Shown: positions 8,945 to 61,283 of the stretch, piece after piece | How the letters are laid out: every line of letters starts with the position of its first letter | How positions within the stretch are numbered: position 1 is the first letter of the stretch | Source: Methanococcoides burtonii DSM 6242 | GTDB lineage: Archaea; Halobacteriota; Methanosarcinia; Methanosarcinales; Methanosarcinaceae | NCBI RefSeq assembly: GCF_000013725.1 | Contig: NC_007955.1 | Location: forward strand, 1,395,579 to 1,459,578 | Reading direction: 5' to 3' | Length of the DNA stretch: 64,000 nt | The notes under the pieces: model-generated | Seen by the model: only the letters and a program-made list of their open reading frames with translations | Databases searched by the model: none | Told to the model about the DNA's origin: nothing | Translations under genes and position numbers: made by a program

Positions 8945-10120
8945 TCATTCCCCCATATGGATAACTTTTGCGTTGGAAACCGCTTCATTAACAAGAGATT
9001 CAATGTCCACTTTTTCTTCTTCTTTGACAATGGAACCAAACACTGCCTTCACCTCTGGATGAACAGGAACAGCACCACAGCCTGAGGTTGGCATTATAGA
9101 AATATCATAGGAACCAATACGTTTGGCAATATCGATTATTTCGGTTTTGTCAAGGCCTATGAGAGGATGATAAAGCGGGATTCCCAGACCCTATACTTCA
9201 GCATGCATATTGGCAGCGGTCTGTGAAGCCACCTGACCAATGGATGAACCCGTGATAATGCCATCAGCATTCTCTTTTTTCATGATCTCATATGCCATAC
9301 GATACATTGTGCGTTTACAGAGAAGGCAGGTATTCTTCACAATGCACTTCTTCATGAACTCATCAAGGTTCTTTCCATGAGGAACCTCATACATTTTCAT
9401 AGGGTCTGCAGGAGACCATTTTTGAAGCCGCTCAACAGCTTTGATCGCACGTTCAAGTGCCCTATCATCAGAAAAAGGTATGTTGTTCGCATAGACAGGT
9501 ATAACCTTCACACCACGCTTCATCATCAGCCATGCGGCCACTGGAGAATCGATGCCACCTGACATTAGAACGATCATAATACCCTGACTGCCAAGCGGAA
9601 GACCACCCACGCCTTTGACAATATCCGTAAAAACATATGCCTTGTTCTGCCTCATTTCAACGGAGATCTCACGGTCGGGATTTGAAAGGTCCACTTTAGG
9701 AGTTCTTCCAATAGATTCAAGCCTGGTCCAGACCGCATCCCCACATAATCTGCCAATGTCCGTGGAAGAAGGACCCTCTTTACCCACACGGCGTGCACGA
9801 ATTCCAAAGGACTCACCTTCATTTATGATATCGACACCAATATCTGCACAAAGCTTTGCAGCTTCATCAACATCAGCATCTATCATTTTAGCTGCTGATG
9901 TGGAAACAACCCCAAAGACGTCCGCAGCTGCTATTGCAGCTTCCGGGTCATCGGAAGTAATGAAGATACGACCCCATTCACGATGAACTCTGGAAAATGA
10001 GACGTTTTTCTGCCTCAACATAGCTTCAAGGTTCCGTACAAGGATCCTTTCATATAGATTCCTGACACCCGGACTCTTAAGTGCTAGTTCTCCATACCTT
10101 ACAATGACCACATCGAACAT
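8945..10120 (-). CDS. thiI: tRNA 4-thiouridine synthase ThiI with in-frame UAG (candidate pyrrolysine)
   Basis: ThiI makes 4-thiouridine at position 8 of tRNA. The visible parts are an N-terminal ferredoxin-like/THUMP region (about residues 1-165), the ATP PP-loop LMSGGIDSP near residue 185, the CLLC cysteines near residue 270, and SIGQVASQT just before codon 310. Codon 310 is TAG (9191-9193). The same frame then continues with GLGIPLYHPLIGLDKTEIID, typical ThiI C-terminal sequence, to a TGA at 8945, giving 391 residues, the usual archaeal length. Read as a stop, UAG would remove about 80 conserved residues. Pyrrolysine insertion is the simplest reading in this amber-decoding organism; a recent nonsense mutation is the alternative. 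Confidence 0.85.
9191..9193 (-). other. In-frame amber codon in thiI (putative pyrrolysine site)
   Basis: TAG sits between MHAEV and GLGIPLYHPL, in the weakly conserved loop after the SIGQVASQT motif. Upstream and downstream parts are in the same frame, so no frameshift is needed to restore the full protein. Confidence 0.75.
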
Positions 10121-10364
10121 GGCCCATACTAATCATGCATCTGTTTTAAGCTATTTGGTAGAGGCAAATGATAGCAATTTTAGAACAAAAAAGAAAACTA
10201 TATGTATGGATGAATCACATAGGTAGGGTTATCCATAAGGACGAAGACTATATTGAAATGCAATATAGAACAAAGGAGTGAGTTTGGGGAGTGGGATTTC
10301 CAATACACTTTTTTGCACTATAATACGATATTACTTACATATCATGGATCGGTGGGGGTATATA

Positions 10365-28722: not shown

Positions 28723-30081
28723 TTAACTATTCAAAAGTTCTACCCATCTCAAAAATGCAGCTGACATAACCGTATCCCCCAATCCGACCGTAGATATGGG
28801 ATCATCGCAAAGCAAAGTTGGCAAAATACAAACGTTGAGACAACCATATTTCCCGCACAATCCCACTTCTGAACCCATTTGGACAACATCCCCATCCAGA
28901 AGATCTTGAACACTTCCCATCTGCTATAACCCGTATTCACTTCTGGAAAACTTAGTCACGGAACTTTCAATATCGGGTCTATATGGAAGTTTACCTGTCG
29001 CTGCAAAAAATGCAGCACACATAATTCCAAATTCCAGACTTTGCATCTCATGATTACATGAAGAGACCGTATCTCTAAAGACCGATATAATAAAATCACG
29101 AGTATGGACAACCATTTTCTTAAGGCCGGTTGCATGAATACATTTCACACATGCTTCAACTATAACAATTGAATTTATCTCCTGAAATCGTTCTTTTGGA
29201 ATGCCATGTATCTCAAATAACATAGCTATTTCATCCTCGTTCATCCCAATACTGTCCACAATGCCCGAAAGTTCCGTAAATATGAAAACTGCCATCTCAT
29301 AGGTGGAAAAATGTCCAAGCTCAGCATGGACCAGCAGATCCGAATTTAATTCTTTCCATTCCTTTATCAAAAACAGAGCTTTTTCAAACTTCTCAACAGG
29401 ACCAGAACTATCTGGATAACTTGAACGAAGCTGATTAAAACCTGAAACAATAGCACCATTCGCAACTTTCACATATTCAAGACTGTAATCTTCAAAAGCA
29501 GGAGATATATAGAGTTCAGTATTCACATTATCATAAGTAGCAATGAACCGGTTCTCCCTCGGAACAGTGATATTCTTCCCGAAAAGCTCAAAACTAAGCC
29601 CTTCCTTAAAGTCAAAGACAAAATGTACGATCTTTTCTTTAGCACCTTTAAGACTGCTTTTCAGATTATTATCACGTTCTTCTGGAAAGATCACATTCTT
29701 TCCTGATATCAACGGCCTTATCGATCCAACATCCCCCACCGGATTAACGACAACCTCTTCTGCTCCCATCTCAGACATAACGTTTGCCATGATCGCCATA
29801 TTTCCACCAACACGTATCACCGCCCGGTCATAAAAATGGTCCATCAGAAACCTAAAAACGGACACTTCCTGAATGAACCATTCAGCGCCTGTCCCATCCT
29901 GCATGCAGCCAACAAGACCTGCAATGAGATCAGAGATCGAAGTGATAGCGCCCGAAGAACGCTGAAAACTGTCGAATAGAACATCCCCATCCACTAATTC
30001 CAGCAATTCAGCAATATCTTCCCCTGTAATAGAATAAACAGCATCCAAATTCATGTTGTAGCCGCAGAGGAACTTCATCAT
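28723..30081 (-). CDS. ADP-dependent sugar kinase paralogue with in-frame UAG (candidate pyrrolysine)
   Basis: ADP-dependent glucokinase/phosphofructokinase family. The N-terminal NMNLD motif (residues 9-13), the HAE motif near 265 and overall similarity to the adjacent intact kinase are clear. Codon 386 is TAG (28924-28926). The same frame continues 66 codons to TAA and contains ILPTLLCDDPISTVGLGD, aligning with VIPTKVVSEPVATVGIGD of the neighbour. The catalytic Asp of GxGD is therefore residue 436, beyond the amber codon, and termination at UAG would give an inactive kinase. Full length is 452 residues with pyrrolysine. GAGGTAAG precedes two adjacent ATGs (30081, 30078). A decaying paralogue is the alternative. 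Confidence 0.85.
28924..28926 (-). other. In-frame amber codon in the ADP-dependent kinase (putative pyrrolysine site)
   Basis: TAG between SRSEYGL and QMGSVQDLL, with matching frame on both sides. The downstream part includes the conserved GLGD catalytic motif, so readthrough is required for activity. Confidence 0.75.
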
Positions 30082-30087
30082 CTTACC

Positions 30088-31545
30088 TCATTTAAGCTTT
30101 GAAAGAAAACCTGCAAATGCAGCTGCTGAAATGACATCGCCAATGCCAACGGTAGCTACTGGCTCACTAACAACCTTTGTAGGAATAACAATAGCATCAT
30201 ACTGGGGTGTACGAATACAGCCATTCTCGAAATCCTCCATACAGCACATGCCACTATTCACAAGATGGTCCTCCAATCTCCCAAGGTCACCATGTCCTTT
30301 GTCAGAAACAGGAACATCAAGACCTGCAACTGTACTTTCGAGTGAAACGATCTCCCCAAGTAATGCCTGTGAAGCTGCGGTAGTGGAAGCAAACAACAAT
30401 GCTTTACGATGATCGAGAACAGACACAGGACAATCCTTAGCAACAACACAGATGTAAAAGCCAAGAGAATGGACGTGCACCCTTTCAAGTTCCAGCTCTT
30501 TTAAAAGCTTCACCGCACCTTCAAAAAGAGAAACTATCGCATTCTCGCCCTTATTGATGACAGAATATGCAAGCTCTTCATAACCAAGAACGTTCAACGC
30601 ATTTGCGACTTCAACTGTATCAAGCCCCAATGAATGAACGTGCTTTTTTACGATATATTTAAGGATAGATTGTCTGATAAGCTTATTTTGAATGGACGTG
30701 AACTCCACATGTATGCGGATATTCGGATTTCCTTCCTTTAGCCTTTCTATCACATTGACAGCTTTATCAATGTAATCCATATAGGTCGAACCATCCTCAT
30801 ACTTTTCTTTTATCATCTGATAACCGGCAAGTAGCGCACCATCTATATTCGCCTGAAGAGAAGGTATCCGCTCATACAATTCCGGAACCATCTCTATACG
30901 AATCCATTTTGGACGAGAAGAGATGATGAGACGATTGTCCCTTGGCACAATGAAATGTTCTCCTTTAAAATTGACACCCATACCTTTTGAGAATTCAAGT
31001 ATCCAGTTCACCTTAGATTTATTTTGAGGATCATAAGCATCCCTGGGACGAACAAGTCTAAGCTGATCGCCTTCAACAACAGGAAATAAAAGATTGTCCG
31101 AATCTACAAAATATTCGGCCTGTTCCGCGGAAAGCCAGGGGACATACGTTATCACATTTTGTCCGATAGATGCCAGAAGATTAGAGATTATACCTGCCTG
31201 ACCACCCATTCGTGCATTATCAAACCCCAAATGATCAGTAAGCCACTCATGGATATCAGTCGTATTTGTCGGAACCTCTGCAGCTTTTCCATCCCGCATA
31301 GCAATAATAAGTCTTGCCATAAGATCGGAAGGAGAATCGATCTGCCGAGGATATTCAAACAACTTATCTTGGACTTCATTTTGGTCAACCTGAGCCAACA
31401 GCATGGAAATATCTTCCTCACTCACATGTTTGATAGCATCAATGTTACTGTTGTAAGCTACGAACATACCCTTTACATTGTCCAGAGACGAACAAATGTC
31501 ATCATAGGACTCACGATAAACAAATTCCCACTCTCTAATATTCAT
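30088..31545 (-). CDS. pfkC: ADP-dependent phosphofructokinase/glucokinase
   Basis: A 485-residue ADP-dependent kinase of the modified Embden-Meyerhof pathway, phosphorylating fructose 6-phosphate (and often glucose) with ADP. The ribokinase-like motifs are NSNIDAIKH near residues 33-41, HVEF near 300, and TVGIGD with the catalytic Asp at 470. Length matches Methanosarcina enzymes (about 485-490). AAGGTGATCTT precedes the ATG. The second kinase starts 7 bases after its stop, and argJ lies 35 bases upstream, so the kinases may be transcribed with the arginine genes. Confidence 0.93.
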   Translation of the reverse strand: MNIREWEFVYRESYDDICSSLDNVKGMFVAYNSNIDAIKHVSEEDISMLLAQVDQNEVQDKLFEYPRQIDSPSDLMARLIIAMRDGKAAEVPTNTTDIHEWLTDHLGFDNARMGGQAGIISNLLASIGQNVITYVPWLSAEQAEYFVDSDNLLFPVVEGDQLRLVRPRDAYDPQNKSKVNWILEFSKGMGVNFKGEHFIVPRDNRLIISSRPKWIRIEMVPELYERIPSLQANIDGALLAGYQMIKEKYEDGSTYMDYIDKAVNVIERLKEGNPNIRIHVEFTSIQNKLIRQSILKYIVKKHVHSLGLDTVEVANALNVLGYEELAYSVINKGENAIVSLFEGAVKLLKELELERVHVHSLGFYICVVAKDCPVSVLDHRKALLFASTTAASQALLGEIVSLESTVAGLDVPVSDKGHGDLGRLEDHLVNSGMCCMEDFENGCIRTPQYDAIVIPTKVVSEPVATVGIGDVISAAAFAGFLSKLK

Positions 31546-59879: not shown

Positions 59880-61283
59880 TTATGCGATTGTTTCCCTGAA
59901 CTTATCACAGCAGTTGATGTCTATGCCGAGAAGCTTCTCGATGTTCATCTTAGCTGCAATACCCTTTGCACAACCTGGCACAGAGGTAATTACACCAATG
60001 TCGAGCTCTTCCCTGAGTTCCCTCATGACATACTCGTCGGAGAGATCTGCATTTGAAACACCAAGTTTCTTTGCAACGAAGTCCTTTGCTTCACCGATTC
60101 TCATGCTCTTGTCAAACTGCATCCTTGCAACAAGGTCACCAGCTGCTCTCATACCGGTCATACCGGAAGCCATGATGTGTGAGATTGGCATACCCATTGG
60201 GTCACCAACACCAATCTATATACCATCGACACCAGCGATCTCGACCATTGCCTTGCTTGCCCTTGTTACTGCATCTATTGGTGGGGTCTCAAGCATTGGG
60301 ATACCACCTACACCCATACCCATATCTGCATGACATGGAATTGTTGATGCCTCAACAGCTGCCTTTGTGAATGTTACTGAACGACCAAGGTTCCATGCAG
60401 ATGTCCTGCTGGTGTTGGTATTACATACAGGACCGAATATGTTTGCTCCTGCCTTTGCTACAAGTGGTGCCTGCTGGTGTGGCCACAGACCTGCAAGTAC
60501 TGTACCATCGTACTCAAGCTCTCCGTGCATACCGAGAACAAGTTCTCCTGCCATACCTGCTTCAATGTAGATTCCCGGGAATTCTTTCCTGAGTGCCTCG
60601 ATAGCATTAAGTGATGCATACATGTCACCGTCACCGGCTGCACCGATGGTATCGAAATTGACACCGTCACAACCAACATTCTGGAGTTTTTGCATGATCC
60701 AGGTCATGTCGCGGATACCGTGCTCTGCAGCATGAAAAATAGAATCCTGTGCTTCAGAGATCTTAAATGCTTTCATAAGATCACCAGGGTTCTCGAATGG
60801 ACCATCAGGAGTGTAGTAAAGACCCATGTTTGGCATTGCGCCATAGAGCATAGGAATGATCATGTTCTGCTGGCAGGACTCCATTGTCTGGCATTCCTGA
60901 GAGATGACAGGCTTTACGGGCTTGTAACTGTAGTCGATGTGACCGAGTTCCATTGTATCCGCACCAAAAGCACGCTCGTGGATCATTGAACCAACAAGTC
61001 TGCTTGCAGGAATACCTACACCACTGTTACCCTGGTCACCATCGATCCTGATAGCACCGATATCGTGAGTTACAGGAACTTCCATGCCTGGCTCCACACC
61101 GACGATCCTGCCAGGTGAAGTGATGATATCAAGCATATGATCCATTTCATTTTCAGAAAGTGCTGGAATGTCACCAAGGTCTGCTGCATCTGCACTACCT
61201 GCTTCGATGTCAGCTCTGATGTCTTCCTTTGTCATGAAGATCTTCTGACCGTCACCCATTCTTAAGAAATATTCTGTTGCCAT
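59880..61283 (-). CDS. mtbB: Dimethylamine:corrinoid methyltransferase MtbB with in-frame UAG (pyrrolysine)
   Basis: MtbB moves a methyl group from dimethylamine to the corrinoid of MtbC. The N-terminus [25 protein letters not shown] near 145 and the barrel-like C-terminal half match the family. Codon 356 is TAG (60216-60218), and the frame continues with [20 protein letters not shown] to TAA at 59880, giving 467 residues, the usual MtbB length with UAG at the known pyrrolysine position. GAGGTG precedes the ATG at 61283; earlier Met codons are not needed. It lies 18 bases after mtbC in one operon. The 3' side is T-rich with a weak AGGG/CCCT hairpin. Confidence 0.97.
60216..60218 (-). other. 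Pyrrolysine codon (UAG) in mtbB
   Basis: TAG at codon 356 in the context GVDGI-UAG-IGVGD, the established pyrrolysine site of dimethylamine methyltransferases. Confidence 0.97.

Follow-up and report, generated by a model that had tools for sequence, protein, structure and literature searches.

The locus raises the question of whether a sugar kinase gene of Methanococcoides burtonii DSM 6242 that carries an in-frame TAG is broken, or is translated through that codon with pyrrolysine (Pyl). The gene, here called k2, lies at 28723..30081 on the minus strand of the window, the 64,000-nucleotide stretch of DNA that was analysed, and encodes an ADP-dependent sugar kinase (PF04587; NF010642 type) of 452 aa when the TAG at codon 386 is read as pyrrolysine. 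Very probably, k2 is a working kinase in which an ancestral GAG (Glu386) became TAG by neutral drift, is read as pyrrolysine, and allows the full 452 aa to be made.

Gene structure and catalytic motifs of k2

Reading on the minus strand, k2 opens with an ATG at 30081 and runs for 385 codons to the TAG (28926-28924), followed by 66 codons and a TAA (28725-28723), so that the post-TAG part occupies 28723..28923. An earlier note on this DNA had given the same arrangement of codons and stops, to which the strand is added here. The TAG is an in-frame UAG within the conserved family domain PF04587, which read-through k2 matches over residues 3-444 with 272 bits (cut-off 27); the 385-aa part alone reaches just 235 bits. 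Read-through k2 also scores 498 bits against NF010642, an NCBIfam equivalog named ADP-dependent glucokinase (cut-off 387). On these matches, k2 is predicted to be a working second ADP-dependent sugar kinase belonging to a glucokinase-like subfamily.

Alignment demonstrated that the motif residues are all kept (motifs as in PMC7948494). These include the sugar-binding NxNxD motif at residues 9-13 (N9, N11 and D13; 30043..30057), the HxE motif at residues 252-254 (H252 and E254; 29320..29328), the NxxE motif at residues 281-284 (N281 and E284; 29230..29241), and GLGD at residues 433-436 (G433 to D436; 28774..28785), all on the minus strand. The GXGD motif is found solely beyond the TAG. Its aspartate, D436, is 50 residues past the TAG. 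In the ancestral Methanosarcinales kinase 6C8Z the residue aligned with it is D471, the catalytic base within the GXGD motif (PMC7948494). Because Asp436, the putative catalytic base of k2, sits downstream of the TAG, a product stopping at residue 385 would be without it. The earlier note had described a family C-terminus with GLGD past the TAG, kept NxNxD and HxE motifs, and loss of the catalytic Asp upon termination; the first two are confirmed, and the third is what the 6C8Z alignment predicts.

The k1-k2 pair

The adjacent intact kinase with an ATVGIGD motif, to which the earlier note had compared k2, is indeed present. This paralogue, k1 (30088..31545, minus strand, read from 31545 to 30088), is of the ADP-PFK type (TIGR02045, 568 bits), lies 6 nt upstream of k2, and shares 26% identity with it. 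Owing to the 6 nt spacing, k1 and k2 are an operon-like pair. The kinase family occurs in 103 of 112 family genomes, each with at least two matches among the matches listed, a few of which are fragments from draft genomes. Virtually all family genomes with this kinase family retain the pair, and in each Methanococcoides genome examined the second kinase comes after the first. Since the pair is kept across the family, k2 is not simply redundant.

M. seepicolus LLY encodes two second-kinase subtypes about 9 kb apart, one like that of the window and one like that of the rest of the genus. The two are 56% identical, and their presence indicates that the k1-adjacent subtype has been duplicated or replaced before.

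Codon 386 in related genomes

In the three nearest orthologues, from sister genomes and 81-84% identical to k2, codon 386 (28924..28926, minus strand) is GAG (Glu), one base from TAG. The alignment of orthologues that the earlier note had proposed as a check was thus carried out, and it returned a sense codon in 3/3 and TAG in none. Among the relatives compared, TAG at this codon is confined to a single genome and species, and no internal stop other than that of the window's k2 was found among the matches listed for kinase homologues of 103 related genomes. Family members differ in the residue found at this site (K, E, I, D, A, L, Y, N, G or Q). In a confident structure model residue 386 falls in a helix (residues 382-392), and on that model it is not expected to be catalytic. 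The codons right after the TAG, 387-408, form a segment that is variable in all relatives. Of the residues invariant among 22 homologues, k2 keeps 68/68 before the TAG and 11/11 after it and, because all are kept, its conservation past the TAG exceeds chance.

Selection downstream of the TAG

Omega was estimated with a branch model on eight orthologues, comparing the window's own branch with the other branches. Before the TAG, omega is 0.23 on the window branch versus 0.16 elsewhere, slightly higher but not significantly so, in a subfamily that is fast-evolving. For the whole tail, omega is 0.41 versus 0.29, a relaxation that is not significant, and a test of neutrality across all 66 post-TAG codons gives only p = 0.04; both values arise because all relatives vary in the loop of codons 387-408. 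When the tail is split into codons 387-408 and 409-452, a division chosen after the alignment had been seen, the latter have an omega of 0.175 on the window branch versus 0.187 on the other branches. For these codons omega = 1 is rejected with the outgroup (2dlnL 8.8, p = 0.003) and along the ingroup path (2dlnL 19.5, p = 1e-5), and 14 synonymous and 5 non-synonymous codon differences separate k2 from its nearest orthologue. Purifying selection on codons 409-452 matches that in the sense-codon orthologues. The comparison of dN/dS upstream and downstream of the TAG that the earlier note had proposed therefore finds constraint on both sides, and the loss of downstream purifying selection, which it had named as evidence against a functional gene, is not seen in codons 409-452. 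The branch test gives the TAG no date: had it arisen at the very end of the branch, the observed selection would predate it.

Pyrrolysine machinery and stop codon usage

The genome, a single contig of 2,575,032 bp, encodes PylS (440 bits) and PylD (415 bits), and a tRNA-Pyl with anticodon CUA adjoins pylS. It holds two mtmB genes with one TAG apiece, and mtbB (PF09505; 59880..61292, minus strand), with its known Pyl TAG at 60216-60218, served as a positive control within the window. Terminal stops were surveyed across 864 kb of the 2,575 kb, in 300 genes that encode 150 aa or more and whose alignment with a sister-genome gene reaches the C-terminus of the latter. The stops were TAA in 135, TGA in 163 and TAG in 2. 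One of the two TAGs is the internal Pyl codon of mtbB, leaving a true terminal TAG in about 1/299. As a terminator, TAG is near-absent, and almost abandoned, in the sampled 864 kb.

Automatic counting of in-frame stops against the ORFs of a relative was dropped, as shadow ORFs and over-extended starts were too numerous, and a Fisher p = 9e-8 was set aside as it mixes real genes with artefacts. The raw counts of single stops (7 TAG, 5 TAA and 5 TGA) show no TAG excess by themselves (binomial p = 0.33); the argument for a UAG code rests on the inspected genes and the terminal-stop census, not on these counts. Clear pseudogenes in the genome, such as a glutamate dehydrogenase-like one at 72.5 kb and a PAP2-like one at 208.4 kb (names from inspection of the sequence), have several lesions each, with TAA and TGA, unlike k2.

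Other genes with a single TAG

The ThiI frame (8945..10132, minus strand) has a single TAG at 9191-9193 that is spanned by the ThiI catalytic domain, and the site is Tyr (TAT or TAC) in 10/10 other Methanococcoides. An acyl-CoA synthetase gene (genome positions 622697-624406, minus strand), 97% identical to its nearest relative, has a single TAG where 10/10 relatives have Glu; the codon stands directly ahead of the C-terminal PKTISGKIRR, and the gene resembles k2 in having a conserved functional motif downstream of its TAG. A gene for a MobA-like NTP transferase (genome positions 87125-87787, minus strand) has one TAG, with Gln in the compared relative, and that for a small DUF5655 protein has a single TAG in place of a sense codon. 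Apart from the TAG, all four genes are intact.

Acyl-CoA synthetase homologues of other Methanococcoides species hold single in-frame TAGs and no TAA or TGA, which suggests that drift into TAG may be genus-wide. The best reading is that UAG serves as a near-general pyrrolysine codon in the M. burtonii genome.

Interpretation and alternatives

We propose that the ancestral GAG at codon 386 mutated to TAG in a host that would charge tRNA-Pyl(CUA) with pyrrolysine and barely use UAG for termination. Ribosomes would put pyrrolysine at 386, giving a 452-aa enzyme that includes the catalytic Asp436. Pyrrolysine would be tolerated at this variable helix position, leaving the Glu codon free to drift to UAG. 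Several observations support the full-length product: the host has Pyl machinery, terminal TAG is rare, the stretch after the TAG is under selection, and other genes carry a single TAG. On these grounds, the amber decoding to a complete kinase suggested in the earlier note is well supported as a prediction. That the substitution was neutral fits with a TAG that is species-private, replaces GAG at a variable position, has no accompanying RNA structure and has counterparts in unrelated genes. Pyrrolysine insertion at 386, its efficiency and the enzyme activity of k2 are all things that we infer from sequence. UAG reporters in M. acetivorans gave an apparent read-through efficiency of 20-30% (PMC2933860), and Pyl insertion is a competition with release factor (reviewed in PMC2933860, PMC8211752 and PMC9499178). 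By analogy, some termination at the UAG of k2 is to be expected.

A recent pseudogene, in which a fresh nonsense TAG limits the product to 385 residues and too little time has passed for the tail to decay, would also explain a TAG found in a single genome. The mutation could be very recent, in which case the selection test says little; moreover, the gene evolves fast, and the genus has a second k2 subtype, the gene having earlier been duplicated or replaced. However, a UAG-decoding tRNA is present, so a lone UAG mutation should leave k2 not fully silenced, codons 409-452 are under selection like those of the orthologues, and the clear pseudogenes here bear multiple TAA and TGA lesions rather than one TAG. 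Decay of k2 is unlikely. The caveat in the earlier note, that k2 might be a decaying redundant paralogue, is not favoured given the conservation of the pair, although the mutation may be very recent. A sequencing error in the finished genome, the true codon being GAG, would need only the one base that separates TAG from the codon of the sisters, but further conserved genes have single TAGs that replace different source codons (Tyr and Glu), a pattern for which random errors would have no preference; such an error is scarcely credible.

The earlier note had also tied sugar phosphorylation to methylamine use. With UAG assigned to Pyl and Asp436 past the TAG, active k2 would depend on pyrrolysine, and this part of the claim stands as a prediction, although such dependence would be common to every TAG gene. 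Regulatory control is not supported. Termination would remove the catalytic Asp, as a switch selected to couple the kinase to methylamine use through pyrrolysine supply would have it, and in Acetohalobium arabaticum UAG is Pyl only on trimethylamine (PMC8211752). Nevertheless, UAG386 is conserved in no relative, a PYLIS-like structure was looked for in the RNA downstream of the k2 TAG and none was found (z = -0.5), and the same single-TAG pattern recurs in unrelated genes, for example those for ThiI and MobA. The M. burtonii lineage is an obligate methylotroph, in which Pyl shortage may be rare. We consider selection for such a switch very improbable. It is somewhat less doubtful, yet still doubtful, that k2 activity tracks methylamine supply in vivo via pyrrolysine availability and that part of glycogen or sugar metabolism follows suit.

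Comparison with known systems

Drift of GAG to a pyrrolysine codon, our preferred reading, would make a kinase of central metabolism one of the very few likely Pyl proteins beyond the methylamine methyltransferases. Standard annotation would label k2, ThiI, MobA and the acyl-CoA synthetase as broken or split. A 2025 paper in Science by Kivenson et al. reportedly describes an archaeal 'Pyl code', in which TAG is generally read as pyrrolysine, and may already list the k2 protein. As in that code, M. burtonii has a near-absence of terminal TAG and has TAG inside unrelated genes; the genome sample thus points, here from sequence alone, to near-general use of UAG as a sense codon by this species.

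Like MtmB, MtbB and MttB, k2 has an in-frame UAG, and the same genome has mtmB twice and mtbB in the window. Unlike the UAG of k2, which is species-private and at a variable site, that of the methylamine methyltransferases is conserved across species and its Pyl is catalytic. With the ADP-dependent PFK/GK of Methanosarcinales (6C8Z; M. jannaschii 5OD2), k2 shares the family and all catalytic motifs, but it differs from 6C8Z and 5OD2 in its subfamily, a separate one of glucokinase-like type (NF010642), and in its TAG at codon 386.

The change from a sense codon to a Pyl codon is an already known kind of event. According to the summary in PMC2933860, Thg1 (tRNA-His guanylyltransferase) of M. acetivorans has a dispensable Pyl gained in one species (Heinemann et al., 2009). 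As far as that summary describes it, the Thg1 pyrrolysine was physically observed, whereas that of k2 is predicted, and the UAG of k2 differs from that of Thg1 in preceding the catalytic Asp, so that a terminated product would be without it. In the same account the two are alike in being conserved, housekeeping-type genes of one Pyl-decoding species, with UAG at a codon that is sense in relatives and a UAG-encoded residue that, in k2, is likewise expected to be non-catalytic.
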